Assembly (NCBI RefSeq): GCF_000212355.1
Contig: NC_015496.1
Span: forward strand, 1,934,501 to 1,998,500
Length of the DNA stretch: 64,000 bases
From: Dokdonia sp. 4H-3-7-5
GTDB taxonomy: Bacteria > Bacteroidota > Bacteroidia > Flavobacteriales > Flavobacteriaceae
Direction of reading: 5' to 3'
The position numbers and the translations under genes were made by a program. The notes below the pieces were generated by a model that saw only the letters and a list, made by a program, of their open reading frames with translations, did not search any database and was not told the DNA's origin. Every line of letters starts with the position of its first letter. The stretch's first letter is position 1. Shown one piece after another: positions 12,059 to 32,680 of the stretch.

Positions 12059-12102
12059 CAAATATCAACTTTTAAAGCAAGCTTATTTGTAACCTAGGTT
12101 AC
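12059..12102 (-). promoter_or_regulatory. Crp/Fnr-type promoter of the yeeE/yedE pair
   Basis: Palindrome GTAACCTAGGTTAC at 12089-12102, then exactly 22 nt, then the -7-like box GATATTTG (12059-12066, minus strand). This matches the shared architecture at ten other units here. Confidence 0.8.
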
Positions 12103-12125
12103 TCAAATAGATGATTGTAATAAAG

Positions 12126-12154
12126 AAAGCACACTAGGATATCTAGTGTGCTTT
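12126..12154 (-). terminator. Terminator after cydB
   Basis: AAAGCACACTAG - GATAT - CTAGTGTGCTTT, a 12-bp stem with a T-rich end, downstream of cydB on the minus strand. Confidence 0.8.
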
Positions 12155-12188
12155 TAATGTGACGATTATACTTTTTCAAAACGCTCGT

Positions 12189-13226
12189 TTAATAACTGTG
12201 GTCATCAAGTTTTACTTTACCTGCAAAGGTTTTATACACAAAGAAAGTATATCCTAAAACGAGCGGAGTTCCTATAGCAACCATTGTCAAGCTTATGCCT
12301 AATGACTTATCTGAAGATGCGGCATTGTAAATCGTAATACTATTTGCCGGATCAATTGTTGAGTATAGAAGCGTAGGGTATAACTCTATAGCTACAAGCA
12401 CCATCATTAAAGAAATGGTAAGTGCAGAGAAGAAAAAGGCTATCTTAAAACGCTTTTTGTGAGCCAGTCTCGGGATGTTTGCGATACTTAAAAACGTAAG
12501 TATTGGTATGATAAATAAAGCTGGAGTTTCCTTAAAATCATCAGAAAGATGAGGTATGTAAATAAGCGTGTATAAAGATGTGATTAGAAAGAACACTATA
12601 AAAAGAATAATAGCCTTTTTAAGAAGTCCTTCTAGTTTATCAAAAAGCTTTCCTTCTGTTTTGAGTAGTAAATAGATAGCTCCGTGGGTCATAAATAAGA
12701 ATAGTGTAGTAAATCCTGTAATGATTGCGTACGGATTTAAAAAGCCAAGAAATGGACTTCCGTCATACTCTAGATCTGGACCTATAGGAATTCCCTGTAG
12801 TACGTTGCCCATTACGACACCTAGTAAAAACGCTAGCATGATACTACTCACACTGTAGCATATATCCCACATTTTGCGCCACCATAGCCATTCTTCTTTA
12901 CTTCTAAATTCTATAGCAATTGCTCTAAAAATGATAAACATTAAAAAGAGCATAAAAGGGATATACAAGCCAGAAAAGAAAGTGGCATACATTACTGGGA
13001 ATCCAGCAAAGAGAGCACCTCCACCTATTACTAGCCATACTTCGTTTCCGTCCCATACAGGTCCTACCGCATTGAGAGCAACACGTCTACTTAATTCCTT
13101 TCTAAAAAATAAATGCCAGGCACCAGCCCCAAAATCAAAACCATCTAGTATGGCATATCCAGAAAAAACACCTCCTACAACGAGAAACCAAAGTGTAGGG
13201 TAATCTATACCTAATAAAGTTTCCAT
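12189..13226 (-). CDS. cydB: Cytochrome bd ubiquinol oxidase subunit II
   Basis: A 345-aa polytopic protein with the CydB opening pattern (YPTLWFLVVGGVFSGYAILDG) and about eight or nine hydrophobic segments; the conserved WDGNEVWLV lies near residues 57-65. With CydA it forms the quinol-oxidising, oxygen-reducing bd oxidase of the inner membrane. It starts 2 bases after cydA on the same strand, so the two form an operon. No cydX-like mini-gene or cydDC exporter is seen beside it. bd oxidases are known to resist sulfide, which fits the surrounding sulfide genes. Confidence 0.95.
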   Translation of the reverse strand: METLLGIDYPTLWFLVVGGVFSGYAILDGFDFGAGAWHLFFRKELSRRVALNAVGPVWDGNEVWLVIGGGALFAGFPVMYATFFSGLYIPFMLFLMFIIFRAIAIEFRSKEEWLWWRKMWDICYSVSSIMLAFLLGVVMGNVLQGIPIGPDLEYDGSPFLGFLNPYAIITGFTTLFLFMTHGAIYLLLKTEGKLFDKLEGLLKKAIILFIVFFLITSLYTLIYIPHLSDDFKETPALFIIPILTFLSIANIPRLAHKKRFKIAFFFSALTISLMMVLVAIELYPTLLYSTIDPANSITIYNAASSDKSLGISLTMVAIGTPLVLGYTFFVYKTFAGKVKLDDHSY

Positions 13227-13228
13227 AG

Positions 13229-14623
13229 TTATGAATTTAAAGTGTTTGCTACCTGTTCTGTAATTTCCTTAGTAAAGGTTCTTTCTTCCATATCATTATC
13301 ATCTTCGTTATAAGGGCCGTGTTTAATTTTCTTAGTTAATAAGTAAAGAAATAAGAAAAGTAATAAAGCATAAACTACAAAGAATAGTACGAGTGAGAAT
13401 ACAATCTGATTTGCAGTAACAGCTTGTGAGAAGGCCTCAGAAGTTCTCAAATGACCGTATACTACCCAAGGCTGTCTTCCCATCTCTGCTGCAAACCAGC
13501 CTACTTGATTCCCTATCTGCGCAAGTATTACAGATGGCACAAATATCTTGAGCAACCATTTTGTTTCAAACAGCGTACCTCGCCACCATAAGAAACAAGC
13601 AAAAAGCGTAAGCCCAATGAAGAACATACCGATTGCAATCATAATATGATAAAACTGGAAGACCGCATTTACTTGTCCAGGTCTGTCTTCTTCTGGAAAG
13701 GCATTAAGACCAGTTACTGGAGCGTCAAAATCTTGATGCAGTAAGAAAGATAATCCTCCTGGTAATTTAATCCCTGTGACTTCTTGTGTCTCATTATCAA
13801 CCCAGCCAAAAAGATATAAATCTGCTGGGCCACTTGCATCATAATGTCCTTCTAGCGCAGCTAGTTTTGCTGGCTGATTAACAGCAACGCCCTCTGCCGA
13901 ACTGTGACCAGTGACTAATTGCATTAAAGAAAAGATAGTGGCAACTCCTAGCGCAATTTTAAATGCCATTTTAGAAATCACAACATAACGACCTTTAATA
14001 AGGTAATATGCATGTACACTAAGTACTAAGAATGCTCCAGCGAGAAATGCTGCAAACCACGTATGCGTAAGTCTATCTACACTAGAAGGATTAAAAACCA
14101 TTGCCCAGAAATCTGTAATCTCTGCACGGGCATTCATTCCTTCTCCTACAATATGATAACCAGCAGGCGTTTGCTGCCAGCTATTTGCTACCACAATCCA
14201 AACGGCAGAAAACATAGATCCTAAAAATACACCTATGGTTGCAACAAGGTGTACCCAAGGTTTTACACGGTTCCATCCAAAGAGTAAGATACCTAGAAAT
14301 CCGCTTTCTAGAGCAAAGGCAAAAATACCTTCGGCGGCTAGCGCACTGCCGAATATGTCACCTACATAGCGAGAATATGTTGCCCAGTTTGTCCCAAACT
14401 CAAACTCCATTACGATTCCCGTAACCACTCCTATCCCAAAGGTGAGTGCAAAAATCTTAGTCCAAAACTTGGCAAGGATGTGATATTGTTCATTTTTTGT
14501 GCGTATCCACAAGCTTTCCATAATTACCATAATAAGACCTAGGCCTATACTTAATGGTGGGTAGATGTAGTGAAAGGAGATGGTAAAAGCAAACTGGATT
14601 CTAGCAAGAATTTCGGTATCCAT
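13229..14623 (-). CDS. cydA: Cytochrome bd ubiquinol oxidase subunit I
   Basis: Haem-bearing subunit of the bd oxidase, 464 aa from the start chosen here. The N-terminus MDTEILARIQFAFTISFHYI places the haem ligand His in SFHYIYPP near residue 18. GHSSAEGVAVNQPAKLAALE (about 230-250) is the conserved Q-loop entry, and the GRQPWVVYGHLRTSEA motif sits near 380. A longer in-frame start at 14680 exists, but it would put the operator-linked -7 box (14644-14651) inside the gene, so ATG at 14623 is preferred. It is co-transcribed with cydB. Confidence 0.95.
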   Translation of the reverse strand: MDTEILARIQFAFTISFHYIYPPLSIGLGLIMVIMESLWIRTKNEQYHILAKFWTKIFALTFGIGVVTGIVMEFEFGTNWATYSRYVGDIFGSALAAEGIFAFALESGFLGILLFGWNRVKPWVHLVATIGVFLGSMFSAVWIVVANSWQQTPAGYHIVGEGMNARAEITDFWAMVFNPSSVDRLTHTWFAAFLAGAFLVLSVHAYYLIKGRYVVISKMAFKIALGVATIFSLMQLVTGHSSAEGVAVNQPAKLAALEGHYDASGPADLYLFGWVDNETQEVTGIKLPGGLSFLLHQDFDAPVTGLNAFPEEDRPGQVNAVFQFYHIMIAIGMFFIGLTLFACFLWWRGTLFETKWLLKIFVPSVILAQIGNQVGWFAAEMGRQPWVVYGHLRTSEAFSQAVTANQIVFSLVLFFVVYALLLFLFLYLLTKKIKHGPYNEDDNDMEERTFTKEITEQVANTLNS

Positions 14624-14643
14624 AGTTATGAAGATTTTGTAAA

Positions 14644-14687
14644 CAAAAATAAAAATTAAACATTTTTGGTTGGGTAACAATGGTTAC
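14644..14687 (-). promoter_or_regulatory. Crp/Fnr-type promoter of cydAB
   Basis: GTAACAATGGTTAC at 14674-14687, 22 nt, then -7 box TATTTTTG (14644-14651, minus strand). The start codon follows 20 bases after the box. Confidence 0.85.
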
Positions 14688-14717
14688 ACAAGTGTAGTTT
14701 TAATTTATTTTTCTTGT

Positions 14718-14761
14718 GTAACCTAGGTAGCTTATAGAAGGTAGATTTCTCAATATTTTTG
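14718..14761 (+). promoter_or_regulatory. Crp/Fnr-type promoter of the copper-receptor operon
   Basis: GTAACCTAGGTAGC (14718-14731; one mismatch from the palindrome), then 22 nt, then TATTTTTG at 14754-14761 on the plus strand. It is divergent from the cydAB promoter. The expected transcript start is near 14768. Confidence 0.75.
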
Positions 14762-14780
14762 ACTAGTTAACTTTTTTAAT

Positions 14781-14800
14781 TACGCTTTCGCGAAAGCGTA
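14781..14800. repeat. 20-bp REP-like palindrome in a 5' leader
   Basis: Perfect TACGCTTTCGCGAAAGCGTA. It lies between the inferred transcript start (about 14768) and the gene at 14824, so it would form a hairpin in the leader RNA. Confidence 0.95.
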
Positions 14801-14823
14801 CCTATCATCTATAAGTTTATTTA

Positions 14824-15204
14824 GTGAAGCTGTTTGCCATGTCCATACTATCATTGTTACTCTTGAGCAATAGCTTAAGAGTATCTGCTGTTTATGGATG
14901 GTACACTCTGGATATAGAAAGTTTTGTAGCACAATTATGTGAGAACACAGATAAGCCAGAACTAAAGTGTGATGGTAAATGCTTTCTAACTAAAGTAGCA
15001 GCCAATACATCATCTCAAGATGAACAAAAGACTCCAATTCTAGAGTGGGATCAATTGGTTTTTTGTCAGCTTGAGGTGAGCTTCCAAGAAGTAGCATTTG
15101 TGCCAGCCACAAAAGGTAATAATCATCACTACACGGCTTTGTATAGTGATATGTTTTCTTACGCAATTTTCCATCCTCCAAAGGTGTGTCCTTTTTTTAT
15201 TTAA
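14824..15204 (+). CDS. Small secreted Cys-containing protein upstream of a copper receptor
   Basis: A 126-aa protein of unknown function. A hydrophobic N-terminus (MSILSLLLLSNSLRVSA) looks like a signal peptide. A conserved-looking cluster LCENTDKPELKCDGKCFL (about residues 39-56) has three cysteines and could bind a metal; two more Cys follow. It begins with GTG at 14824, or with ATG at 14839 (MSIL). It lies 69 bases before the TonB-dependent receptor start and shares its promoter. A role in copper handling is inferred only from this linkage. Confidence 0.65.
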   Translation: MKLFAMSILSLLLLSNSLRVSAVYGWYTLDIESFVAQLCENTDKPELKCDGKCFLTKVAANTSSQDEQKTPILEWDQLVFCQLEVSFQEVAFVPATKGNNHHYTALYSDMFSYAIFHPPKVCPFFI

Positions 15205-15211
15205 AAAAGGA

Positions 15212-15238
15212 GAGGAAATAGATGTATGCTATTTCCTC
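15212..15238. other. Intercistronic hairpin before the receptor gene
   Basis: GAGGAAATAG - ATGTATG - CTATTTCCTC forms a perfect 10-bp stem without a following T run. It could set mRNA processing or the relative level of the two products; the role is not known. Confidence 0.5.
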
Positions 15239-15273
15239 CATATCACTGTGATGTAATTTGGAATAAAGAAACA

Positions 15274-17379
15274 ATGAATATAAAAAGAACTGCGCTTCTG
15301 TGCGCACTTATACCTGTATCAATGATAGCTCAAGAAACAGGGGAAAAACAAGACACAATAACTTCAAAATCTATTCAATTAAATACAGTACTTGTCACTG
15401 GACAAGGAAATACAGACCCAGTACTAACTACAGTTAAAACAGATCTTCTTAAGAAAGTAGTGCAACCCAAAAATGTAGCCGACTTATTTAATGATTTCAA
15501 CGGGTTTTCATTAATTAAACGAGGTAACTATGCCATAGATCCGTCATTTAGAGCTATTCAGTATGAACAGCTTAATATTCAATTTGATGGCGGTACAAAA
15601 GCAGTACACGCTTGCCCTAACAGAATGGATCCTATTACTACTCATGTGGTACCTGAAGAGATAGAACGTATTGAGGTAATAAAAGGGCCTTATACCGTGA
15701 GGTATGGAGCAACCTTTGGCGGAGTGATTAATTTAGTCACTCAGAAACCTCAATCTATGGACAACGGCTTGCATGGTCGTGTAAATACTGGATATGAATC
15801 TAATGGCAATTCTCTCGTATCTTCTTTATCGCTAAATCAAGTAACTGAGAAATATGATATCACTGCAAATGCTGGTTATCGTGATTTTGGTAATTATGAA
15901 GATGGGGATGGTGTTGAGATTCCTTCGTCCTTTAGAAGTTTAGATTATGGTTTGAGGTTAGGGTATAATATAAACGATAACCAAAGAATTCAAGCGCACT
16001 GGAGACAATCATTTGGCAGAGATGTATTACACGCTGGATTACCTATGGATACAGAAGAGGATAATAGTTCAATTTTATCCATAGACTATAAGAAGACTAA
16101 GAAGAATGGTTTTATAAAAGAGCTTAATGCAAAAGTATATTACTCTTATGTAGATCATATCATGTCTAACGAAAACAGACCTTCGTTCATGACTACAGAG
16201 GCGCTGTCTGCTATAGATGCTACTACGGCAGGAGGGAAACTAGAGTTAAAAATGAAACCAACAGATAATTGGATTCTCTATGGAGGTCTTGATGCCATGC
16301 TTATTGCAAGAGATGGTGGTAGGACGAGAGTTGTAAAACGTAATATGATGGGTATGGAGCTTGCAGAACCTTTGGTTTTTCAGGATAAAGTATGGCAAGA
16401 CTCTTATGTAAATGACTTTGGGTTATTTGTAGAAAATAAATATGCATTGTCAGATAAGACAATGCTTACTGCAGGAGTGAGATATGATCTTGTGGTCTCA
16501 GACATCCAAGATCCAGAAGCAGATTTCCAGTCGCTATATACTAACTTAGAGCAGCGAGAGGAACATAATATCTCAGCAACGGTCTCTATCAAGCATAAAG
16601 TGTCAGATAATGTAACTTTAGAAGCAGCTTATGGGCGTGGCGTACGATCTGCAAATATGATAGAGCGTTATATAAATCACTTTTCTGTAGGACAAGATCC
16701 TTTTGAATATGTCGGAAATCCTTTTCTAGAAGCTGAGGTGAATAACCAGTTTGAAATAGGAATAAAAGGGAAGCAGTTCTTTACTACTGGAATTGATGCA
16801 ATTAGATACGGCTTATCTGGATACTATTCATTTTATGAAAACTATATTGTACAAGTAGTAGACCCGGAGCTGGACCGTAAATTTATGCCTATGACACAAC
16901 CACAAGAAGTAAAACGATTTGTAAATCTTGATAACGCTTACAAAACAGGTTTTGAAGCCGATGTAGCAATCGATTTTGCTCTTTATTTCAATGTTAATAC
17001 AAGTCTCTCTTATGTTTATACTAAAAATGAAGATCTAGATGAGTCGCTGCCATTAACACCTCCTTTGATTACAAGACTAGGAGTAGCTTTTGAAAAAGAT
17101 AGATACTGGGCTAGTGTAGATTATACAGTGACATCAAAACAAGATGAGATAGCGTCAAGCTTTAGAGAGCAAGAAACTGCAGGTTATGAAACCTTAGACG
17201 TGCGTTTTGGTATGGAAGTTATTAAAGACTTTAATGTAGGTCTAGCAGTCTTAAATGCATTTGATGAGACTTATAATAATCACCTCAACTTCTCTTTTGT
17301 AAATCAGGCAGATTTTACAAGAGTACCTATAAACGACCCAGGTAGAAATTTCTCTGTATTTGTACAGTATGGATTTTAG
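15274..17379 (+). CDS. TonB-dependent copper receptor, OprC/NosA-like
   Basis: Outer-membrane beta-barrel receptor of 701 aa with an N-terminal signal (ALLCALIPVSMIAQ) and a plug domain. The plug contains HACPNRMDP at about residues 112-120. The CxxxM pattern (Cys114, Met118) is the hallmark copper site of OprC-type receptors; this is family knowledge. EEIERIEVIKGPYTVRYGA is the plug TonB-family signature, and the protein ends in an aromatic residue (VFVQYGF), as barrels do. ATG at 15274 is chosen over 15226 because it directly precedes the signal peptide. It is in the same transcription unit as the small Cys protein, under the regulon-type promoter at 14718-14761. Confidence 0.85.
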   Translation: MNIKRTALLCALIPVSMIAQETGEKQDTITSKSIQLNTVLVTGQGNTDPVLTTVKTDLLKKVVQPKNVADLFNDFNGFSLIKRGNYAIDPSFRAIQYEQLNIQFDGGTKAVHACPNRMDPITTHVVPEEIERIEVIKGPYTVRYGATFGGVINLVTQKPQSMDNGLHGRVNTGYESNGNSLVSSLSLNQVTEKYDITANAGYRDFGNYEDGDGVEIPSSFRSLDYGLRLGYNINDNQRIQAHWRQSFGRDVLHAGLPMDTEEDNSSILSIDYKKTKKNGFIKELNAKVYYSYVDHIMSNENRPSFMTTEALSAIDATTAGGKLELKMKPTDNWILYGGLDAMLIARDGGRTRVVKRNMMGMELAEPLVFQDKVWQDSYVNDFGLFVENKYALSDKTMLTAGVRYDLVVSDIQDPEADFQSLYTNLEQREEHNISATVSIKHKVSDNVTLEAAYGRGVRSANMIERYINHFSVGQDPFEYVGNPFLEAEVNNQFEIGIKGKQFFTTGIDAIRYGLSGYYSFYENYIVQVVDPELDRKFMPMTQPQEVKRFVNLDNAYKTGFEADVAIDFALYFNVNTSLSYVYTKNEDLDESLPLTPPLITRLGVAFEKDRYWASVDYTVTSKQDEIASSFREQETAGYETLDVRFGMEVIKDFNVGLAVLNAFDETYNNHLNFSFVNQADFTRVPINDPGRNFSVFVQYGF

Positions 17380-17446: not shown

Positions 17447-17920
17447 CTAGTTACGATATGCAGAGAGCATCCACACTAGCTTTTCTTGTTGTGTAATGTA
17501 ATCACTCATTAAAGCAACAGTACCTTCATCACCACCGTCTCCAGCAGTTGTAAGTATTGTTCTTTCCTTTTGTAACAACACCTTTAAAGATTCAAGGATG
17601 TTATCTATTGCCTCTTCGCCATCAGTTACATTTTTGGCAGCTTCAATGTCTGAGCTGTTTAAGTAGTCCTTAAATGAATGAGTAGGAGTAGCACTTAAAG
17701 TAAGTACACGCTCTGCGATTTCATCTACTTTGATGAGTGCATTATTATATAACTCTTCAAATTTTACATGTAGTTCAAAAAATTTCTTTCCCGTAATATT
17801 CCAGTGAAAACCTCTTAGGTTCATATAAAAGATCTGGTAGTTAGAAAGTAAGTCGTTAAGTTGGGTTGCTGTGGTTTGAGATGTTGAAATGTCTAAACCT
17901 ATGTTGTTTGTATTGCTCAT
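17447..17920 (-). CDS. dps: Dps-family ferritin-like DNA protection protein
   Basis: A 157-aa Dps. The ferroxidase ligands are spaced exactly as in the family: His39 and His51 (NLRGFHWNITGKKFFELH), Asp66 and Glu70 (KVDEIAER). It forms a dodecamer that oxidises Fe2+ with peroxide and stores iron. It starts 6 bases after the stop of the persulfide dioxygenase-rhodanese gene on the same strand and is probably co-transcribed with it. This suggests linked protection against sulfide- and iron-driven oxidative stress. Confidence 0.93.
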   Translation of the reverse strand: MSNTNNIGLDISTSQTTATQLNDLLSNYQIFYMNLRGFHWNITGKKFFELHVKFEELYNNALIKVDEIAERVLTLSATPTHSFKDYLNSSDIEAAKNVTDGEEAIDNILESLKVLLQKERTILTTAGDGGDEGTVALMSDYITQQEKLVWMLSAYRN

Positions 17921-19318: not shown

Positions 19319-19984
19319 TTAGATACTCTTTTTTGCGAGATACCAAGTAACTTTTTCTACAGAATCATCTGCAAGTCTCTCGTTTAATGCGTCTAGTGTT
19401 TTAGGTGGAGAGCAAATCACTTGATCACCTCTTTTCCAGTCTAGCGGCATAGATACCTTATGCTTATCTGACATTTGCAGTGCATCTAGCGCTCTTAGAA
19501 TTTCATCCATATTACGACCAACATTAAGCGGGTAATACATAATAAGACGAATTTTTTTGGCAGGATCGATAAAGAAAACAGCTCTTACTGCTGCAGTCTC
19601 ACTCTCGTTAGGCTGTAACATCCCGTATAGCTTTGATACCTTCATATCAATATCTGCGATGATAGGAAAATCAAAGTAAATACCTGTGTTTTCTCTTACA
19701 TTTTGAACCCATCCTAAGTGAGCGTGTATACTGTCTATACTAAGACCTAGTAGTTCTGTATTTAAGGCGTCAAATTCTGGTTTTCTAATAGCGAAACCAC
19801 TCATTTCTGTGGTACACACTGGAGTGAAATCTGCAGGGTGAGAGAACATCACTGTCCACTTATCTTTTGCAAACTCAGACATTTTTATAGTTCCCTTAGT
19901 CGTAACTGCCTCAAAATCTGGTGCTGTATCACCTATTCTAGGCATTGAGATTACTTGTTCTGGCAATAGGTTTTCTTTATCCAT
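19319..19984 (-). CDS. Peroxiredoxin (Prx6/AhpC2 type)
   Basis: A 221-aa thiol peroxidase. The peroxidatic Cys57 sits in PADFTPVCTTE, and Arg134 lies in the expected conserved region. Cys191 in the C-terminal arm could be the resolving residue, as in archaeal-type Prx6 enzymes. It reduces peroxides, and possibly persulfides or peroxynitrite, in the cytoplasm. A regulon-type promoter lies upstream (operator 20048-20061, -7 box 20018-20025) and a strong terminator follows. The surrounding cysteine and sulfide genes suggest a shared sulfur-stress response. Confidence 0.9.
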   Translation of the reverse strand: MDKENLLPEQVISMPRIGDTAPDFEAVTTKGTIKMSEFAKDKWTVMFSHPADFTPVCTTEMSGFAIRKPEFDALNTELLGLSIDSIHAHLGWVQNVRENTGIYFDFPIIADIDMKVSKLYGMLQPNESETAAVRAVFFIDPAKKIRLIMYYPLNVGRNMDEILRALDALQMSDKHKVSMPLDWKRGDQVICSPPKTLDALNERLADDSVEKVTWYLAKKSI

Positions 19985-20017: not shown

Positions 20018-20061
20018 TAAAGATACGTTATAGATGTAGGTGGCTTAGTAACCTATGTTAC
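20018..20061 (-). promoter_or_regulatory. Crp/Fnr-type promoter of the peroxiredoxin gene
   Basis: GTAACCTATGTTAC at 20048-20061, 22 nt, then TATCTTTA (20018-20025) on the minus strand. Confidence 0.85.
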
Positions 20062-20168: not shown

Positions 20169-21047
20169 CTATTCAAATAACTCTGACGAAAGGTATCTAT
20201 CTCCGCGATCACAAATGATGCTTACTATAATTCCGCTTTCTAGTTCGCTAGCTAGTTTTAGAGCCGCCGTAGTTGCGCCACCGCTACTCATACCTGCTAG
20301 TATTCCTTCTTCTTGTGCTAGCCTTCTAGCCATGGCAATAGACTCATCACGACTTACTTCGATGGTTCTATCTACTTTTGATGCATTAAAGATTTTTGGT
20401 AAATATTCTTGTGGCCATTTACGTATGCCCGGAATGCTAGATCCATCTGTAGGTTGTACTCCTACAATCTGGATATCGCTGTTTTGTTCTTTTAAAAATG
20501 TTGAGGTTCCCATGATGGTACCTGTGGTTCCCATAGAAGATACAAAGTGCGTTACCTCACCTTGAGTATCTCTCCATATTTCTGGACCTGTGGTTTTGTA
20601 GTGAGCCTGCCAGTTATGATCATTTGAAAACTGGTTAAAAGAGAAGTACCCTTCATTTTCAACCTTATCAATAGCATAATCTCTAGCGCCTTCTATCCCG
20701 TCAGGGTGAAGTGTAACTTTTGCTCCGTAAGCTCTCATGGTTTGCACACGTTCCTTAGTTGCCTTTGAAGGCATTACGAGTTCTATTTCTAGCCCATAAA
20801 TAGCAGCAATCATGGCAAGTGCTATACCTGTATTACCACTTGTAGCCTCAATAAGCTTTGTGCTTTTATCTATAGCGCCGCTATCTAGCGCGCTTTTAAT
20901 CATATTATAAGCAGCTCTGTCTTTTACACTACCTCCAGGATTGTCACCTTCTAGTTTAAAATATAAACTCACATTTGGGTTTGTATTTAATGCTATAGAC
21001 TTGACTATTGGAGTGTTTCCTATTTGATCTAAGAGTGTCTTATTCAT
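20169..21047 (-). CDS. cysM: Cysteine synthase B (O-acetylserine sulfhydrylase, PLP enzyme)
   Basis: A 292-aa fold type II PLP enzyme. The Schiff-base Lys42 lies in NPGGSVKDRAA, the substrate loop EATSGNTGIALA at about 68-79, and the phosphate-binding glycine loop MGTTGTIMGT near 172-181. Its length and motifs fit CysM, which makes cysteine from O-acetylserine and sulfide or thiosulfate. It starts 7 bases after cysE on the same strand, so serine acetylation and sulfur incorporation are co-expressed. Assimilating sulfide into cysteine is one way to consume it. Confidence 0.92.
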   Translation of the reverse strand: MNKTLLDQIGNTPIVKSIALNTNPNVSLYFKLEGDNPGGSVKDRAAYNMIKSALDSGAIDKSTKLIEATSGNTGIALAMIAAIYGLEIELVMPSKATKERVQTMRAYGAKVTLHPDGIEGARDYAIDKVENEGYFSFNQFSNDHNWQAHYKTTGPEIWRDTQGEVTHFVSSMGTTGTIMGTSTFLKEQNSDIQIVGVQPTDGSSIPGIRKWPQEYLPKIFNASKVDRTIEVSRDESIAMARRLAQEEGILAGMSSGGATTAALKLASELESGIIVSIICDRGDRYLSSELFE

Positions 21048-21054
21048 TGCTTAT

Positions 21055-21840
21055 TTATTTTTTATTGCGAATTTCTACTTTAGGATTGTGGAGTACTATA
21101 GAGTTTTGAGGTACTGTCTTTGTCACCCAAGTATTACCTCCTATGATACTATCTTTTCCTATAACTGTAATTCCACCTAGTATTGTTGCATTTGCATAAA
21201 TCGTAACATTATCCTCAATGGTAGGGTGTCTTTTTATGCTCTTTAAATCCTTGTTTACCGTAAGTGCACCTAGGGTAACTCCTTGATATAGTTTTACATT
21301 ATTATGTATTTCGGCAGTCTCTCCTATCACCACTCCGGTTCCGTGATCAATAAAAAAGGATTCTCCTATTTGCGCTCCTGGATGAATATCTATACCCGTA
21401 AGCTGGTGTGCATATTCTGTCATTAGTCGTGGTATGAGTGGTAAACCTAACTCATAAAATTCTCTTGCCATTCTATAAATCGCAATAGCAAAAAAACCAG
21501 GATAGGCTAGGTACACTTCTTCTAGAGATTGTGCAGCAGGATCATTGCTATAAATAGCCTCTGCATCCTTTTTTAAACTACAAAAGAGCGTAGGTATTAC
21601 AAGTGTGAAGTCATCCCATTTTTTACACGGACTACCTTTAATCTCTGGACAAGCAAGATCTCTTATGGTAATAAATAAGGCTTCAAGAGTCTCAAGAGTC
21701 TTTTCTGTATCTGTTCCATTATCAAACAGTGTGTTAAATAACAACTGTGTAAATCGTTGCGATTCTTGCTTCAATAGAATGGAAACTTTGATTTCCTTTT
21801 TCTGTTTATTGATAGATGTAATTAAATCGGTATAATTCAT
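21055..21840 (-). CDS. cysE: Serine O-acetyltransferase
   Basis: A 261-aa protein with an N-terminal helical domain and a C-terminal left-handed beta-helix of hexapeptide repeats (about 165-255), including DIHPGAQIGESFFIDHGTG and VVIGETAEI. It makes O-acetylserine for CysM and resembles the EpsC-like form common in Bacteroidota. It is the first gene of the cysE-cysM operon. No GTAAC-N4-GTTAC site is present directly upstream; a terminator hairpin (21881-21915) for the preceding SQR gene lies there, so it has its own promoter or depends on read-through. Confidence 0.92.
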   Translation of the reverse strand: MNYTDLITSINKQKKEIKVSILLKQESQRFTQLLFNTLFDNGTDTEKTLETLEALFITIRDLACPEIKGSPCKKWDDFTLVIPTLFCSLKKDAEAIYSNDPAAQSLEEVYLAYPGFFAIAIYRMAREFYELGLPLIPRLMTEYAHQLTGIDIHPGAQIGESFFIDHGTGVVIGETAEIHNNVKLYQGVTLGALTVNKDLKSIKRHPTIEDNVTIYANATILGGITVIGKDSIIGGNTWVTKTVPQNSIVLHNPKVEIRNKK

Positions 21841-23265: not shown

Positions 23266-23309
23266 TAAAAATAGTCGAATACTTAAGGAATTACTGTAAC
23301 TCAAGTTAC
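23266..23309 (-). promoter_or_regulatory. Crp/Fnr-type promoter of sqr
   Basis: GTAACTCAAGTTAC at 23296-23309, 22 nt, then TATTTTTA (23266-23273) on the minus strand. Confidence 0.85.
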
Positions 23310-26657: not shown

Positions 26658-27023
26658 TTACTGCCAAGCCATAAATCCTCCTTTTAAATCAAAAATCTGC
26701 TTGAACCCTAAACTATCTAAGGTCTGTGAGGCTTTCTTACTTCTGTTTCCAGATCTACAGTAGATATAAATAGGCTCTTCTTTACTGTAAGAGTTGAAAG
26801 CAGAAATAAAATTTTCTTTATCAAAAACATCAATGTTTACAGCTTTCTTTATATGACCGCTATCAAACTCATTCTTAGTTCTAACATCTACTAACTGCAC
26901 TTTTTTATCTGTGATAGCGGTTTTAAAGTCGGCTGTGCTTAGAACAGTGATATTGCTATTTTGTTGAGGCTTACCTCCAAAGAGAAATGATAATATGGAC
27001 ATAATAAGGATTATTAATTTCAT
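26658..27023 (-). CDS. Secreted or membrane-anchored single-domain rhodanese
   Basis: A 121-aa protein. An N-terminal hydrophobic segment (LIILIMSILSFLFG) is a signal or anchor, followed by a rhodanese domain with active Cys in YCRSGNRS (about residue 89). It transfers sulfane sulfur, probably in the periplasm. Its own regulon-type promoter lies 42 bases upstream (operator 27065-27078; -7 box 27035-27042), so it is a single-gene unit. Confidence 0.88.
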   Translation of the reverse strand: MKLIILIMSILSFLFGGKPQQNSNITVLSTADFKTAITDKKVQLVDVRTKNEFDSGHIKKAVNIDVFDKENFISAFNSYSKEEPIYIYCRSGNRSKKASQTLDSLGFKQIFDLKGGFMAWQ

Positions 27024-27034: not shown

Positions 27035-27078
27035 TAAAGATAGTCCTCTAGTTACCCACTGCCAGTAACTTAAGTTAC
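27035..27078 (-). promoter_or_regulatory. Crp/Fnr-type promoter of the secreted rhodanese gene
   Basis: GTAACTTAAGTTAC at 27065-27078, 22 nt, then TATCTTTA (27035-27042) on the minus strand. Confidence 0.85.
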
Positions 27079-27179: not shown

Positions 27180-27497
27180 TTAAGCTGGAATTACGGTTTT
27201 ACCATTCCAGTCTAGCATTCCACCTACTAGATTAAACGTGTTTTTTATCGCTAGATTATCTAATGCTCGGCATGCTTGACCACTACGATTACCACTTCTA
27301 CAGTACACGTAGTAATTCTTTGTTTGATCAAGTTTTTTTATTTCTTCTTGAAACTTAGCGCTATTTAGAAAATCAATCATTACTGCATTTTCAATGATAC
27401 CCTCACTGCATTCTCCAGGAGTTCTAACATCAAGAATTATAGCATTGCTGTCATTCTCAATTGCCGACTCCCAATCTACTTGTGATATATTTTTCAT
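27180..27497 (-). CDS. Cytoplasmic single-domain rhodanese
   Basis: A 105-aa rhodanese with active Cys in YCRSGNRSGQAC (about residue 71) and no signal peptide. It starts 6 bases after the stop of the persulfide dioxygenase-rhodanese gene (copy 2), so the two are one operon. It is a probable sulfane-sulfur carrier working with that enzyme. Confidence 0.9.
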   Translation of the reverse strand: MKNISQVDWESAIENDSNAIILDVRTPGECSEGIIENAVMIDFLNSAKFQEEIKKLDQTKNYYVYCRSGNRSGQACRALDNLAIKNTFNLVGGMLDWNGKTVIPA

Positions 27498-27503
27498 AGT
27501 CTT

Positions 27504-28910
27504 TTAAAGTGTTGAAGGACAAACAAAGGCAGACACCGGAATGCCAGCTTCTTTAATATCTTTAAAGCCGCCTTGTACATCTATTAAGTTATGGATTCCT
27601 CTACTTTTTAATATAGATGAGGCTATCATACTTCTATAACCTCCGGCACAATGCACATAAAAAGGTTTGTCTGGAAATTCAGCTAGATGATCATTTAAGA
27701 AATCTAGTGGTGTGTTGTTTGCTCCAAGTACATGTTCTGATAGGTACTCACTTTCTTTGCGCACATCAAAAACAGGTTTGTTACCTTTTTCTAATTCGCT
27801 TTTAAAACCATCTGCTGTGATAGAACTTACGGTATCGTATTCCATGGCAGCGTCTTTCCAAGCATCAAATCCTCCTTCCAGATATCCTATTGTGTTGTCA
27901 AACCCTACACGAGATAACCTAGTGATGGTTTCTTTCTCTCTACCTGGCTCTGTAACTAGCAATAAGGGTTGTTTTACATCTGCAATTAAGGCGCCTACCC
28001 ATGGAGCGAAACTCCCATCTAGGCCTATAAATATAGATCTAGGGATATGCCCTTTGGCAAATTTATCTTGATGACGCACGTCTAGTACGATAGCTCCTGT
28101 CTCATTTGCAACAGCTTCAAAAGCTTCTGGAGATAGTGCATGCGTACCTCTTTTGAGTACGTCTTCAATATCTTCATAACCTTCTTTATTCATTTTGACA
28201 TTAAGAGGGAAGTACTGAGGTGGAGGTAATAAACCATCTATCACTTCTGCTATAAATTCTTCCTTAGTCATATCTGCACGTAGTGCATAATTCATTTGCT
28301 TTTGATTCCCTAGTGTGTCTACTGTTTCTTTCATCATGTTCTTTCCGCAAGCAGATCCAGCTCCGTGAGCAGGGTATACTGTAACGTCATCTGCTAGGGG
28401 CATAATTTTATTACGTAAGCTATCATAAAGAAAACCTGCGAGATCTTTTTCTGTGAGTTCGCCCATTTTTTGAGCAAGATCTGGTCTTCCCACGTCGCCT
28501 AGAAATAATGTGTCTCCACTAAATATCGCATGATCCTTCCCGTCTTTATCTCTAAGAAGATATGTGGTGCTTTCCATCGTATGACCAGGCGTGTGTAACG
28601 CTATAATTGTAATGTCACCTAGAGGAAATTCTTGCCTATCTGTTGCGATAATAGCATCAAAACTTGGGTTTGCATTTGGTCCAAAAACAATAGGAGCACC
28701 TGTCGCCTTTGATAAGGTTACGTGACCACTTACAAAGTCTGCATGAAAATGAGTTTCAAAAATATATTTGATTTTTGCATCATCTTGTTTGGCCCTATTT
28801 AAATATGGCGTTACCTCTCTTAAAGGGTCAATGATAGCTACTTCACCATTACTTTCAATGTAATAAGCTCCTTGAGCTAGACAACCAGTATATATTTGTT
28901 CAACGTTCAT
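27504..28910 (-). CDS. Persulfide dioxygenase-rhodanese fusion (CstB-like), copy 2
   Basis: A 468-aa protein. The metallo-beta-lactamase domain has THFHADF, HTPGHTMEST, SGDTLFLGDVGRPDL and a Cys in GAGSACGK. A middle rhodanese fold without an active Cys and a C-terminal rhodanese with Cys421 (HCAGGYRS) follow. Start ATG at 28910 (MNVEQIYTGC) is chosen because the alternative at 28949 would read through a REP palindrome and lacks family similarity. It is closely similar along its whole length to copy 3 next door, so they look like a tandem duplication. It has its own operator and a downstream rhodanese partner. Confidence 0.9.
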   Translation of the reverse strand: MNVEQIYTGCLAQGAYYIESNGEVAIIDPLREVTPYLNRAKQDDAKIKYIFETHFHADFVSGHVTLSKATGAPIVFGPNANPSFDAIIATDRQEFPLGDITIIALHTPGHTMESTTYLLRDKDGKDHAIFSGDTLFLGDVGRPDLAQKMGELTEKDLAGFLYDSLRNKIMPLADDVTVYPAHGAGSACGKNMMKETVDTLGNQKQMNYALRADMTKEEFIAEVIDGLLPPPQYFPLNVKMNKEGYEDIEDVLKRGTHALSPEAFEAVANETGAIVLDVRHQDKFAKGHIPRSIFIGLDGSFAPWVGALIADVKQPLLLVTEPGREKETITRLSRVGFDNTIGYLEGGFDAWKDAAMEYDTVSSITADGFKSELEKGNKPVFDVRKESEYLSEHVLGANNTPLDFLNDHLAEFPDKPFYVHCAGGYRSMIASSILKSRGIHNLIDVQGGFKDIKEAGIPVSAFVCPSTL

Positions 28911-28924
28911 AAGTGTATTTTTTT

Positions 28925-28943
28925 TACGCTTTCGCGAAAGCGG
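28925..28943. repeat. REP-like palindrome in the 5' leader of copy 2
   Basis: TACGCTTTCGCGAAAGCGG, perfect core with an altered right end. It lies between the inferred -7 box (28962-28969) and the start codon. This explains why operator-to-start distance is longer here (82) than at the other sites (37-64). Confidence 0.9.
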
Positions 28944-28961
28944 ACTCAACTATTAATAACG

Positions 28962-29005
28962 TAAAATTAGCTAATAGAAGTAGTTGCTACAGTAACATAG
29001 GTTAC
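28962..29005 (-). promoter_or_regulatory. Crp/Fnr-type promoter of persulfide dioxygenase copy 2
   Basis: GTAACATAGGTTAC at 28992-29005, 22 nt, then TAATTTTA (28962-28969) on the minus strand. Confidence 0.85.
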
Positions 29006-29020
29006 AAAGGAGAAAAATAA

Positions 29021-29055
29021 ATAGAGCCCTTATCCTTAAAAGGGTAAGAGCTCTA
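29021..29055 (-). terminator. Terminator-like hairpin after persulfide dioxygenase copy 3
   Basis: AGAGCCCTTATCCTT and AAGGGTAAGAGCTCT pair imperfectly around a short loop. On the minus strand T-rich sequence follows. Confidence 0.6.
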
Positions 29056-29070
29056 CAAAGTAATAGCCGG

Positions 29071-30483
29071 TTAGAGCAAAGTGGTAGGGCATACATACTC
29101 AGACCTAGGAACCGTAGTTTCTGTAATTTGAGCAAAACCACCTCGTACATCACTAAAATCTTGCCAGCCACGTTGCTTTAAAATAGAGGCAGCAATCATA
29201 CTTCTATATCCTCCAGCACAGTGAAGGATGAAAGGTTTGTTTTTTGGAAATTGTGCCAGATGCTGGTTAATCTCATTGAGAGGCACGTTAATAGCCCCTA
29301 GTATATGTTCTGATAGGAATTCACTCTTTTTGCGTACGTCAAAAATGAGAGGTTGACCCATTTTATATTCGGCTTCTAGTTGTTGAGGTGAGATACGAGT
29401 GACTGTTTCAAAATCTTTACCGCTCTCTTTCCACGAGGAAAAACTATTTTTTAAAAACCCAATCGTAAAATCATAACCCACACGAGAAAGTCTAGTAATT
29501 GTTTCTTCTTCTTTACCAGGATCTGTAATTAGCAATATTTCTTGTTTTACATCAGGAATCATTTCTCCTACCCATTGTGCAAAATTACCGTCTAAGCCTA
29601 TGTTTATACTATTAGGTATAAAACCTTTTGCAAAAACTTCGGCATCGCGAGTGTCAAGCATAAGAGCACCGGTCTCATTTGCTATTATTTCAAAGGCCGC
29701 TGGATCAAGTGGCTTAGTTGCCCGATCCATAATAGTATCTAAGCTTTCATATCCTTTAATATTCATCAAGACATTTTGAGGGAAGTATCCAGGAGGTGCC
29801 GTAAGTCCAGTAAGTACAGCTTTAATAAACTCATCTTTAGTCATTTCTTGAAGCGCATAATTGAATTTTTTCTGATTCCCTAAGGTGTCTGTAGTTTCCT
29901 TACTCATCATTTTACCACACGCAGATCCAGCTCCGTGATTAGGATATACAATAAGATGGTCATCAAGTGGTATTATTTTGTTTCTTAAAGAGTCGTACAA
30001 GTGACCAGCGAGTTTTTCTTCTGTGAGGTCAGACACTACATGCTGCGCAAGGTCTGGACGACCTACGTCACCTATAAATAATGTGTCTCCAGTTATAATA
30101 CCGTGCTCGTTTCCTAGTTGGTCTATGAGAAGATATGTTGTGCTTTCCATGGTATGACCAGGAGTATGGATGACTTTAACTTTATAATTACCTACCTCAA
30201 AAATTTGACCATCTGTTGCTGTAATAGCATCATAAGCGGGTTTTGCTTCTGGACCAAAAACAATATCAGCTCCTGTTTTTTTACGTAAATCAAGGTGGCC
30301 ACTTACAAAGTCTGCATGAAAGTGTGTTTCAAAAACATACTTGATTGTAGCATTATCTATTTGTGCACGTTCTATGTATGGTTGCACCTCTCTTAAAGGG
30401 TCAAAGACTGCAGCTTCTCCGTTACTTTCAATATAATATGCTGCATGAGCAATGCATCCTGTATAAATTTGTTCTACTTTCAT
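29071..30483 (-). CDS. Persulfide dioxygenase-rhodanese fusion (CstB-like), copy 3
   Basis: A 470-aa paralogue of copy 2 with the same domain order: metallo-beta-lactamase (THFHADF, HTPGHTMEST, GDTLFIGDVGRPDL, GAGSACGK), a Cys-less middle rhodanese, and a C-terminal rhodanese with Cys422. It is expected to oxidise persulfides and move sulfane sulfur in the cytoplasm. It is a single-gene unit with its own operator, which has one mismatch. The usual HxHxDH motif has Phe in place of the last His in all three copies; that His is not one of the iron ligands in mononuclear persulfide dioxygenases. Confidence 0.9.
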   Translation of the reverse strand: MKVEQIYTGCIAHAAYYIESNGEAAVFDPLREVQPYIERAQIDNATIKYVFETHFHADFVSGHLDLRKKTGADIVFGPEAKPAYDAITATDGQIFEVGNYKVKVIHTPGHTMESTTYLLIDQLGNEHGIITGDTLFIGDVGRPDLAQHVVSDLTEEKLAGHLYDSLRNKIIPLDDHLIVYPNHGAGSACGKMMSKETTDTLGNQKKFNYALQEMTKDEFIKAVLTGLTAPPGYFPQNVLMNIKGYESLDTIMDRATKPLDPAAFEIIANETGALMLDTRDAEVFAKGFIPNSINIGLDGNFAQWVGEMIPDVKQEILLITDPGKEEETITRLSRVGYDFTIGFLKNSFSSWKESGKDFETVTRISPQQLEAEYKMGQPLIFDVRKKSEFLSEHILGAINVPLNEINQHLAQFPKNKPFILHCAGGYRSMIAASILKQRGWQDFSDVRGGFAQITETTVPRSEYVCPTTLL

Positions 30484-30513
30484 TTTATGTGGATTTTTAA
30501 AATTATAACAACA

Positions 30514-30557
30514 TAAAAGTAAGCAGTCATTTCAAGTGTGTAGGTTACTTAAGTTAC
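30514..30557 (-). promoter_or_regulatory. Crp/Fnr-type promoter of persulfide dioxygenase copy 3
   Basis: GTTACTTAAGTTAC at 30544-30557 (one mismatch in the distal half-site), 22 nt, then TACTTTTA (30514-30521) on the minus strand. Confidence 0.78.
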
Positions 30558-30625
30558 ATAAACGTAGATAGTTAGTAAACTATGATATTTGTCATATCAA
30601 GACAAAGTAGTATCGAGCGTTAAAA

Positions 30626-30666
30626 CAAAAAAGGCTATTTCTAATAATAAGAAATAGCCTTTTTTA
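30626..30666 (-). terminator. Terminator after the TauE/SafE gene
   Basis: GGCTATTTCT and AGAAATAGCC form a 10-bp stem flanked by A and T runs. Confidence 0.82.
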
Positions 30667-30681
30667 TGATTTTTATTCTCT

Positions 30682-31494
30682 TTAATGTTTTACAAAAAAC
30701 TCCATGTAAAAAATGAATATTGCCATTACAAATATGAAGTAGCCAAAACCTCTTTTCAATTTATCTCCATCTATAAAATTACTGAGGTAACTGCCTATAA
30801 AAATCCCTACAAATGATATGCCTGTAAATATGGAAAGAAATAGCCAATCTATATCCATGGTTAATGCATCTCCTAGAAAGAAACCCATCAATGATTTAAA
30901 AGCGATAATGATTAAAGAAGTTCCTACCGCAACTTTCATTTCTACATTTGCTAGTATAACAAGAGCGGGAATAATGAGAAAACCTCCCCCAGCGCCTATC
31001 ATTCCAGTAATACCTCCTACGATGAGGCCTTCTATTAAAATAAGTGGATAATTGTAAGTGACAGTGCCGTCCCCTTTTTGTTTATTATCCTTTCTTTTTT
31101 TGAGCATAGAAAAGGCTGCAGGAATCATGAGTACCGCAAAGAGGCCAAACATTGCCATTCTACGTGTAAACTCAAAATCACCTGTGGTAAGTAAAATATC
31201 TGGTAATGCAGGTACTACATAATGTCTCACAACGGTAACTCCTACAATAGCGGGTAGTCCAAAAACAATTGCTGTTCTCCAGTCTACATAGCCTTTAAGA
31301 TGTTGTTTAAAACCACCTACGAGCGCACTTGCTCCTACAATGAATAAAGAATATGCAGTGGCAACTTTTTCATTTACAGAAAATAAGTAAGCTAGTACTG
31401 GTACAGCGAGTATAGAACCACCACCACCTATTAAACCTAAAGAAATGCCGATGATCAAGGCACTTATATATCCAAGTATTTCTAGTATCTCCAT
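30682..31494 (-). CDS. TauE/SafE-family sulfite/sulfonate exporter
   Basis: A 270-aa membrane protein with about eight hydrophobic segments and the two internally similar halves of the family, marked by GLIGGGGSILAVPVL and GMIGAGGGFLIIPALV. It probably exports sulfite or related sulfur anions made by persulfide oxidation. A longer in-frame start at 31521 lies within the regulon-type -7 box (31519-31526), upstream of any transcript start, so ATG at 31494 is chosen. It lies directly downstream of the Crp/Fnr gene but has its own promoter. Confidence 0.88.
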   Translation of the reverse strand: MEILEILGYISALIIGISLGLIGGGGSILAVPVLAYLFSVNEKVATAYSLFIVGASALVGGFKQHLKGYVDWRTAIVFGLPAIVGVTVVRHYVVPALPDILLTTGDFEFTRRMAMFGLFAVLMIPAAFSMLKKRKDNKQKGDGTVTYNYPLILIEGLIVGGITGMIGAGGGFLIIPALVILANVEMKVAVGTSLIIIAFKSLMGFFLGDALTMDIDWLFLSIFTGISFVGIFIGSYLSNFIDGDKLKRGFGYFIFVMAIFIFYMEFFVKH

Positions 31495-31518
31495 TATAAA
31501 CCTCTTTGTATTGAGAGA

Positions 31519-31562
31519 CAAAAATAGACTTGCTATAACGACCTAGGTGTAACCCAAGTTAC
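31519..31562 (-). promoter_or_regulatory. Crp/Fnr-type promoter of the TauE/SafE gene
   Basis: GTAACCCAAGTTAC at 31549-31562, 22 nt, then TATTTTTG (31519-31526) on the minus strand. It lies between the regulator gene and the exporter gene. Confidence 0.85.
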
Positions 31563-31569
31563 TTAAGGT

Positions 31570-32202
31570 CTATAAATCTATAATTTGGATATTATTTCTG
31601 TGTAATTCAATTTTTCCTAAGTTCTCTAATTTCTTAAGAAGTCTTGATACCACTACTCTTGAGGTGTGCAATTCGTAAGCAATTTCTTGATGCGTGTTAT
31701 TAATAATTTGCTCATCGTTTACTCTAGCCTTTTCTTTTAAGTAGTTTAAAAGGCGTTCATCCATGTTATCAAATGCGATACTGTCAAGAGTTTGTAATAG
31801 CTCGTTGAGGCGGTTGTGGTAACTCTCAAAAACAAAATTTCTCCAAGATTTGTACTTAGCCGTCCATTCTTCCATTTTCTGTACAGGTACCATAATGAGC
31901 TTGGTGTCTGTCTCTGCAATTGCTCGTATTTCACTTTTAGTTTGCCCCATGCAGCAGGTCATTGTCATAGAGCAGGTATCTCCTTTTTCTAGATAGTAGA
32001 GGAGAAGCTCATCTCCATTTTTATCTTCTCTTAATACCTTAATTACTCCAGAGACCAGTAGCGGCATTCCTTTTACATAGCCGCCTATTTCCATGAGTTT
32101 AAAACCTTCAGGAACCTCCTTGTAAGTGCCTACTTGGAGTATTTCATTGATAAGTTCATCTTCAAAGAGATGACCGTAACTGGCTTTTAGTTCTTGAATC
32201 AT
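31570..32202 (-). CDS. Crp/Fnr-family transcription regulator, proposed sulfur-stress activator
   Basis: A 210-aa regulator with an N-terminal cyclic-nucleotide-binding-type beta-roll (about 15-115), a dimer helix (about 117-150) and a helix-turn-helix at about 169-192 (HTSRVVVSRLLKKLE). Cys77, Cys83 and Cys84 cluster in GDTCSMTMTCC, where a thiol or persulfide switch could sit. There is no FNR-type N-terminal Cys cluster. It shares a TAATG-type overlap with DUF983 upstream, and that unit carries the palindrome GTAAC-N4-GTTAC. The same palindrome precedes most sulfur genes nearby, so this protein is the best candidate to bind it, with autoregulation. The inducer is unknown. Confidence 0.88.
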   Translation of the reverse strand: MIQELKASYGHLFEDELINEILQVGTYKEVPEGFKLMEIGGYVKGMPLLVSGVIKVLREDKNGDELLLYYLEKGDTCSMTMTCCMGQTKSEIRAIAETDTKLIMVPVQKMEEWTAKYKSWRNFVFESYHNRLNELLQTLDSIAFDNMDERLLNYLKEKARVNDEQIINNTHQEIAYELHTSRVVVSRLLKKLENLGKIELHRNNIQIIDL

Positions 32203-32591
32203 TATGCGGCTTTTTTAAGAATGCTAGGGTCATATTTAAAAAAGAAATGAGCCCAAATAGATTTTGATACGGCACCTATGTATGGCATTGTGATGATTAA
32301 TGCAATGACGATACTCGTTAGAATACCTGTAGGTCCAAAATCTAAACCAAAAATAAAGGATAAAACATAAACGGCCACGGCAACTGCGATTCCCACACCA
32401 TAAGATACGTACATAGAGCCCGTATAAAAGCTAGGTTCTATACTATATTTTAATTGGCATTTAGGACAGTTCTTTTTAACCTTATTCATGTTAGAAAGCT
32501 TATAAGGATGCGCCTCAAGAAATTCACCTTCTCTGCATTGAGGACATTTTAAAAATAAGATGCTATATATTATCGATTTACCCATGGACAA
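32202..32591 (-). CDS. DUF983-family zinc-ribbon membrane protein
   Basis: A 129-aa protein. The N-terminal zinc ribbon has two Cys pairs, CPQC and CPKC, about 28 residues apart, and two transmembrane segments follow (about 55-80 and 85-105). The family function is unknown. It overlaps the regulator gene by one base and is first in that unit. Its conservation beside the regulator suggests a functional link such as signal input, but this is inference. Confidence 0.85.
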   Translation of the reverse strand: MSMGKSIIYSILFLKCPQCREGEFLEAHPYKLSNMNKVKKNCPKCQLKYSIEPSFYTGSMYVSYGVGIAVAVAVYVLSFIFGLDFGPTGILTSIVIALIITMPYIGAVSKSIWAHFFFKYDPSILKKAA

Positions 32592-32605
32592 TTCAGTTTT
32601 TTATG

Positions 32606-32680
32606 TAAAATTAAACGTATTAAAATATGCTCACGGTAACTTATGTTACATATTGTAATATTTAAAATTAGTTATCTTTA
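32606..32680. promoter_or_regulatory. Divergent Crp/Fnr-type promoter region shared by DUF983-regulator and the RND operon
   Basis: A single operator, GTAACTTATGTTAC at 32636-32649. To the left, 22 nt then TAATTTTA (32606-32613) points at DUF983. To the right, 23 nt then TATCTTTA (32673-32680) points at the His-rich gene. Confidence 0.8.

Follow-up and report, generated by a model that had tools for sequence, protein, structure and literature searches.

We analysed a window of 64,000 nt from Dokdonia sp. 4H-3-7-5 (contig NC_015496.1; the genome is one contig of 3.39 Mb) and found that a palindrome, GTAAC-N4-GTTAC, recurs at a fixed distance from the promoters of an island of sulfide and persulfide genes. 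The gene at 31570-32202 encodes a Crp/Fnr protein that is quite probably the local class II activator of this island, acting through the palindrome. The sites are real and conserved, and they are well supported as a regulon; we infer that the protein binds them, activates the promoters and answers to sulfane sulfur. In the mechanism that we propose, a dimer of the regulator would bind GTAAC-N4-GTTAC with the operator centre at approximately -41.5; the sigma-A promoter, with its TAnnTTTR -7 box and a -33 element that is weak, would follow immediately downstream. When reactive sulfur rises, it would be read as sulfane sulfur through cysteines 77, 83 and 84, and the regulator would activate its own DUF983-crp operon as well as the clearance genes, i.e. 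those for sulfide:quinone oxidoreductase (SQR), CstB-like dioxygenases, rhodaneses, the TauE and YeeE transporters, peroxiredoxin and cytochrome bd.

Eight exact sites were found in the window (12089, 14674, 20048, 23296, 27065, 28992, 31549 and 32636), together with one site of one mismatch at 30544 and one of two mismatches at 14718 (GTAACCTAGGTAGC). All ten positions reported in a first-pass annotation of the window were thereby recovered; it had assigned one mismatch to two of them, which was correct for 30544 and incorrect for 14718. When up to one mismatch was allowed, nine sites were observed in the window compared to 1.72 expected from shuffles, and none of the 100 shuffles reached nine. 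Genome-wide there were 23 exact sites, 8 within the window and 15 outside, and the combination of an exact site with TAnnTTT at +22 occurred seven times in the whole genome, always in the island, with a reversed control of 0. Our first impression that the 15 outside sites formed a wider regulon was rejected, as none of the 15 carried the box at +22; eight of them were copies of one 282-bp repeat. The eight copies of this repeat lie at C1:125434-127421 (L147), each with GTAACATCTGTTAC and without a -7 box at +22.

The -7 box lay exactly 22 nt from the operator in 10 of the 11 promoter directions of the window (nine on the minus strand and the plus direction of 14718), and at 23 nt in the eleventh, the plus direction of 32636. 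The box at 12089 was the variant GATATTTG, and the other ten directions fitted TAnnTTTR. For the nine better window sites, TAnnTTTR stood at +22 in 8 of 18 directions (binomial P of approximately 4e-14, with the flanks of the window sites themselves as background). The sigma-A box of F. psychrophilum spans -12 to -5, as described in the available part of PMC9723704. With such a box and a 22-nt spacer, the operator would lie at -48 to -35 with its centre at -41.5. The operators of the island may thus be centred near -41.5 in a class II Crp/Fnr arrangement, for which the fixed spacing was observed and the start positions were carried over from the F. psychrophilum box.

To judge conservation, the loci of the best 80 of 190 regulator relatives (63-100% identical; 1.44 Mb) were collected from a scan of genome contigs; loci truncated by contig ends were kept in the totals, and in the survey of cysteines and recognition helix identical proteins were counted once. 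These loci held 252 exact sites, compared to a mean of 1.58 for 59 permuted half-sites, and the next after GTAAC among all 1,024 half-sites was TTTTT with 94. Only the N4 spacing was enriched, the other spacings from 0 to 12 giving 0-2 sites each. The first-pass annotation would have been refuted by sites equally frequent in random DNA, and they were far above chance. The 22-nt geometry that it had described also held, since TAnnTTTR was present at +22 in 192/504 directions, the next offsets being 10 (7 directions) and 21 (6 directions). Counted by site, 190/252 had TAnnTTT at +22 in one or both directions, and an exact site with this box was present in 72 of the 80 loci. Where a box was present, T preceded the operator in 92% of the sites, and TG occupied spacer positions 1-2 in 85/193; therefore, the -33 element may persist in residual form, and the earlier claim that the operator replaces the -33 TTG was only partly right. 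Over half of the labelled start codons were 16-30 nt downstream of the box, with a long tail beyond.

The occurrence of the sites followed that of the regulator. Among 149 genomes of the family, a site with box was found in 78 of the 82 with a close orthologue (mean 3.3), in 21/35 with an intermediate one and in 2/32 with a remote one or none; these E-value classes were chosen by us (close, best E<=1e-75; intermediate, to 1e-50). The reversed control gave 9 matches in the same genomes, compared to 312 for site with box. Within one genus (g128; close, E<=1e-60), 69/72 genomes with a close orthologue had a site with box, compared to 26/107 of those without. Of 247 genomes drawn from the phylum, 30 had site and box; a homologue at E<=1e-30 was present in 25 of these, compared to 88/247 overall. 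The motif therefore tracks the regulator across the family and within the genus, which was the check proposed for it.

The genes facing the 227 promoter-sites of the orthologous loci were labelled by BLAST to the window proteins, a reference set from which hcp is absent. A gene related to a window gene was faced by 196 of them: TauE 34, MBL-rhodanese A 28, rhodanese 28, MBL-rhodanese B 24, regulator 17, peroxiredoxin 16, SQR 15, DUF983 14, CydA 7 and others 13. Sulfur genes made up 134 of these 196. Ten of the 31 unlabelled targets were scanned with Pfam and gave FA hydroxylase (2), SulP (2), outer-membrane efflux (2), and one each of molybdopterin oxidoreductase, OsmC and YgaP, with one lacking a match.

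The regulator belongs to the Crp/Fnr superfamily by its Pfam domains (HTH_Crp_2, 8.7e-10; cNMP_binding, 3.4e-07). Its AlphaFold model had a mean predicted local distance difference test score of 88.2, lower (62-76) across residues 71-90, and a Crp/Fnr fold by structure comparison (1zrf_A, template modelling score 0.78 by query length). The protein holds three cysteines only, at 77, 83 and 84, which were invariant in the alignment of 109/109 core orthologues, and this CX5CC motif aligned with the CRP segment GDFIGELGLFEEGQERS, which presumably contains the cAMP phosphate cassette. Invariant cysteines and a sulfide-clearing target set are both present, as in a regulator that senses reactive sulfur. 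Sulfane sulfur, read by a thiol sensor formed by cysteines 77/83/84, would therefore be the likeliest signal.

The recognition helix of the regulator reads TSRVVVSR, with R and V at CRP positions 180/181; position 181 was Val in 108 of the 109 core orthologues and Ile in one. In CRP, exchange of Glu181 for Val moves the preference from G:C to A:T at the base concerned. The genome's own paralogue (C1:2517643-2518221) has Arg-Glu at positions 180/181, and the sole GTGAC-N4-GTCAC-N22-TAnnTTT of the genome lies immediately past its stop codon, facing YgaP-like and SulP genes; paralogue and site together occupy C1:2517589-2518221 (L148, L298). We further counted sites directly after the gene for 225 distinct homologues in the retrieved loci, with the same C-terminal stretch counted once and spacers of 21-23 nt allowed. 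Site and box were present for 98 of them (92 sites at 22 nt, 6 at 21). For Val-181 proteins, both halves were GTAAC in 82 cases and GTGAC in 0, although some of these rows may come from loci retrieved by the GTAAC pattern; for Glu-181 proteins, both halves were GTGAC in 9 and GTAAC in 0, and four of the nine (L305, L307, L310, L312) likewise came from loci retrieved for GTGAC sites, the five others (L148, L195-L198) being motif-blind. The remaining sites were six mixed ones (five Val, one Glu) and one GTAAC site after a Thr protein. The computation thus established that helix residue 181 covaries with the operator, Val with GTAAC and Glu with GTGAC, at the same promoter geometry.

Several observations weigh against the proposed regulon or its strictest form. 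TAnnTTT was missing at +22 in 62 of the 252 sites, 37 of which were one letter short of TAnnTTTR; 7 of the 80 orthologous loci had no exact site, and one (L076) had seven exact sites, none with a box. Among the 225 homologues, 127 (110 Val, 16 Glu, 1 Ile) had no such site directly after the gene. Site with box was also missing in 4/82 family genomes with a close orthologue and in 14/35 with an intermediate one. Conversely, the 26 of 107 g128 genomes that carry a site without a close orthologue suggest that a second regulator may share the motif; in seven such loci retrieved, the gene faced by the site was labelled by BLAST as coding for a rhodanese domain in six and for a Tll0287-like cytochrome in one. 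The rows are phylogenetically non-independent, so that relatedness inflates the counts. In clade B, a Val-181 group of 24 loci (47-54% identical), both halves of the boxed operators were GTGAC in 5, mixed in 4 and GTAAC in 3. These operators have drifted towards GTGAC; therefore, Val does not strictly dictate A, and the rule that GTAAC goes with every Val-181 protein was not upheld in its strict form. Ten of the 24 clade B loci were read gene by gene: the regulator, YeeE, TauE and MBL-rhodanese stood in a row in 10/10, with the site between TauE and MBL-rhodanese in 8/10. Finally, for cydAB and the TonB receptor, control by oxygen or by copper is as plausible as control by sulfur.

This last point bears on the signal. 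The same regulator could, through the same sites, answer to oxygen limitation or to the general thiol redox state, the sulfur genes being included since sulfide and low oxygen occur together. The presence of cydAB in the regulon (7 promoter-sites in orthologous loci), the peroxiredoxin and OsmC targets and conserved cysteines able to form a plain disulfide would all suit such a signal. We nevertheless consider it unlikely, since TauE, dioxygenase, rhodanese and SQR genes dominate the targets and cydA is a minor one (7/196), and since sulfur genes are neighbours, within 6 kb, of 102/110 Val-181 proteins with CX5CC (each C-terminal stretch being counted once). In the same count, such neighbours were found for 8/17 Val proteins and 10/12 Glu proteins without CC, five of the eight having only YeeE genes and five of the ten only YgaP. 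The idea that a sulfur neighbourhood requires the CC motif was therefore not upheld. Together with cydAB and the copper-type receptor, the sulfur neighbours of CC-less homologues would leave room for other signals.

The direction of control may also be questioned. A regulator that represses, occupying its sites while sulfide is absent and leaving them when the cysteines are modified, would follow SqrR and BigR, which together with SoxR are placed in the ArsR-type repressor family in the accessible part of PMC10451225, and the operator does abut the -33 region. We hold this to be improbable, since a repressor needs no fixed distance, in our view, whereas class II activation would agree with the strict 22-nt spacing and with the absence of a complete -33 element.

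It is very improbable that the protein is an HcpR-type Crp/Fnr regulator that reads a nitrosative-stress signal (NO or nitrite) through the same operator. The HcpR2 operator given in the available part of PMC1274295, GTAACnnnnGTTAC, is identical to the window operator, and HcpR2 is likewise of the Crp/Fnr family; the motif is therefore not new, and in this respect the description of the regulon as new-looking did not stand. In a class-level relative (G380, locus L209), GTAAC-N4-GTTAC with a box at 22 nt precedes hcp and looks like an HcpR2 site of the same geometry. However, the window regulator lacks a homologue in G380 at E<=1e-3. Nor was hcp (PF03063, Prismane family), the gene regulated by HcpR2, found in the Dokdonia genome at E<=1e-3, and for this reason an HcpR identity was rejected for the Dokdonia regulator. 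HcpR2 usually has Pro at position 181 according to the same part of PMC1274295, whereas the orthologues have Val in 108/109. The dominance of sulfur genes among the labelled targets (134/196) also argues against it, with the limit that hcp, being outside the reference set, could not have been labelled. Ownership of the motif by another DNA-binding protein, or a repeat element lying in promoters by chance, is scarcely credible. In its favour, 8/15 outside matches are one 282-bp repeat and some genomes have a site without a close orthologue. Against it, none of these repeat copies has the box at +22, the abundance of sites goes with the regulator, and operator and helix residue vary together; an origin by chance or from a repeat was also rejected by the shuffles, the half-site permutations, the controls for spacer length and the reversed patterns.

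The features of the island are listed in Table 1. Its gene content was as first described, except that the MBL-rhodanese fusions number three (442, 470 and 481 aa) instead of two. For the TauE gene, the TTG listed as start (31521) falls inside the -7 box, so that the ATG at 31494 is the likely start. The operator at 32636 has a minus box at 32606-32613 (22 nt) towards DUF983-regulator and a plus box at 32673-32680 (23 nt) towards the RND operon. Relatives of hyp126 have GTGAC-N4-GTCAC and a box upstream in five other genomes.

Table 1. Genes and operators of the sulfide/persulfide island (window positions; ORF, open reading frame)
Feature	Position	Strand	Basis
YeeE/YedE, two halves	11070-12044	-	Pfam; operator 12089 upstream
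Operator GTAACCTAGGTTAC, box variant GATATTTG at 22 nt	12089-12102	-	motif scan
cydAB	12189-14623	-	Pfam; operator 14674 upstream
Operator GTAACCATTGTTAC, box TATTTTTG at 22 nt, upstream of cydAB	14674-14687	-	motif scan
Degenerate operator GTAACCTAGGTAGC, box TATTTTTG at 22 nt, towards hyp126 and receptor	14718-14731	+	motif scan
TonB-dependent copper-type receptor	14824-17379	+	best NCBIfam model TIGR01778, under its cut-off
Dps-like ferritin	17447-17920	-	Pfam
MBL-rhodanese fusion, 442 aa	17927-19255	-	Pfam
1-Cys-type peroxiredoxin	19319-19984	-	Pfam
Operator GTAACATAGGTTAC, box TATCTTTA at 22 nt	20048-20061	-	motif scan
Hexapeptide-transferase (CysE-like) and PALP (CysK/M-like) genes, after SQR	20169-21840	-	Pfam; CysE/CysK names are our labels
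Sulfide:quinone oxidoreductase	21933-23249	-	phmmer 9.1e-101 to 6mp5; Pfam
Operator GTAACTTGAGTTAC, box TATTTTTA at 22 nt	23296-23309	-	motif scan
Rhodanese, then HMA, DUF202, Tll0287-like cytochrome, DUF2490 and carbonic anhydrase genes	rhodanese 26658-27023	-	Pfam
Operator GTAACTTAAGTTAC, box TATCTTTA at 22 nt, upstream of rhodanese 26658-27023	27065-27078	-	motif scan
105-aa rhodanese, after 481-aa MBL-rhodanese	27180-27497	-	Pfam, ORF list
MBL-rhodanese fusion, 481-aa ORF from TTG; 468 aa from first in-frame ATG	27504-28910	-	Pfam, ORF list
Operator GTAACCTATGTTAC, box TAATTTTA at 22 nt	28992-29005	-	motif scan
MBL-rhodanese fusion, 470 aa, candidate CstB-like persulfide dioxygenase	29071-30483	-	Pfam; PDB 3tp9 1.9e-70, 3r2u 6.4e-57
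Operator with one mismatch (GTTACTTAAGTTAC, plus-strand reading), box TACTTTTA at 22 nt	30544-30557	-	motif scan
TauE/SafE-family protein	30682-31494	-	Pfam; likely ATG start at 31494
Operator GTAACTTGGGTTAC, box TATTTTTG at 31519-31526, facing TauE; just past regulator stop codon	31549-31562	-	motif scan
Crp/Fnr regulator, 210 aa	31570-32202	-	Pfam, alignment, AlphaFold model
DUF983 protein, first gene of presumed DUF983-regulator operon	32202-32591	-	Pfam
Operator GTAACTTATGTTAC between DUF983-regulator and RND operon	32636-32649	both	motif scan
RND efflux operon: CusA-like and OEP, then CusB-like	33163-38641	+	Pfam

Some further observations were made along the way. In the RND operon, the CusA-like pump and the outer-membrane efflux (OEP) domain share one 1443-aa frame (window 33163-37494). 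The boxless array of L076 (8548-9713), from a Tenacibaculum metagenome-assembled genome, consists of seven GTAACATTTGTTAC operators 144-215 bp apart, immediately before the regulator orthologue and without TAnnTTT at +22. Another palindrome, ACGCTTTCGCGAAAGCGT, occurs ten times in the 64-kb window with up to one mismatch (11014, 14782, 19129, 20105, 28926, 34442, 38418, 40653, 41678 and 51703; shuffle mean 0.00), partly intergenic and partly intragenic. A single open frame of at least 3236 aa occupies 54291-63998 and runs past the window end. One 14-mer recurs there at 60495, 61605 and 62715, and its spacing of 1110 bp hints at long protein repeats; a search for repeats with periods up to 500 detected none at 53.9-64 kb.

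If the proposed mechanism is true, flavobacteria gain a candidate for the master switch of their defence against sulfide and persulfide, with approximately ten named promoters and a defined operator. A reactive-sulfur response would then be placed in the Crp/Fnr family, in which a limited literature search found none. With the geometry fixed, class II activation at the divergent sigma-A promoter of Bacteroidota can be tested directly, and the paralogues with Val and Glu offer a natural parallel to the earlier work on CRP Glu181 specificity. There is about an even chance that the system represents a Crp/Fnr activator whose cyclic-nucleotide phosphate cassette became a CX5CC sensor of reactive sulfur, widespread in the flavobacterial family and paired with a Glu-181 paralogue (GTAAC versus GTGAC at identical geometry). 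Among the matches listed for open-licence papers, no Crp/Fnr regulon for sulfide or persulfide clearance appeared, this being a weak search, part of which probably missed the family name printed with a slash. No Crp/Fnr protein is among the sulfide regulators named in the available parts of PMC9774590 and PMC10451225. A persulfidated Crp-like protein has been reported in Acinetobacter, its regulatory effect not being known there (PMC7315123, in part), and the HcpR and NikR motifs in the available part of PMC545781 differ from the window operator.

Compared with known Crp/Fnr proteins, the regulator shares Arg-Val at the same helix positions with NtcA (STRVTVTR in the alignment), whose operator is GTA-N8-TAC; however, it scored 33 bits against the NtcA model cut-off of 244.95, and the target genes differ. 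E. coli CRP resembles it in fold (1zrf_A) and palindromic operator, which at class II CRP promoters is centred at -41.5, but the score was 51.4 bits against a cut-off of 266, the GEL of CRP is SMT here, and the segment carries CX5CC. The best PDB match by both sequence (7e-15) and fold was 3dv8, a Crp/Fnr protein of Eubacterium rectale for which we know of no assigned function; it shares CX5C at the same position but lacks the third cysteine. FNR (4Fe-4S) has four cluster-ligating cysteines, three of them N-terminal, whereas the window regulator has only its three.

CstR, SqrR, BigR and FisR are cysteine-bearing regulators that respond to reactive sulfur, SqrR and BigR being of the ArsR family and FisR of the Fis family, as stated in the available part of PMC9774590. 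In contrast to the window regulator, none of the four is a Crp/Fnr protein. CstR is of the CsoR type, and the Staphylococcus cst operon holds SQR, CstB and TauE. In the window, the nearest solved relative of SQR is the mitochondrial enzyme (6mp5), and the 470-aa MBL-rhodanese fusion resembles 3tp9 and 3r2u, the latter of which we take to be S. aureus CstB. The island therefore resembles the Staphylococcus cst operon, but with a regulator of another family.

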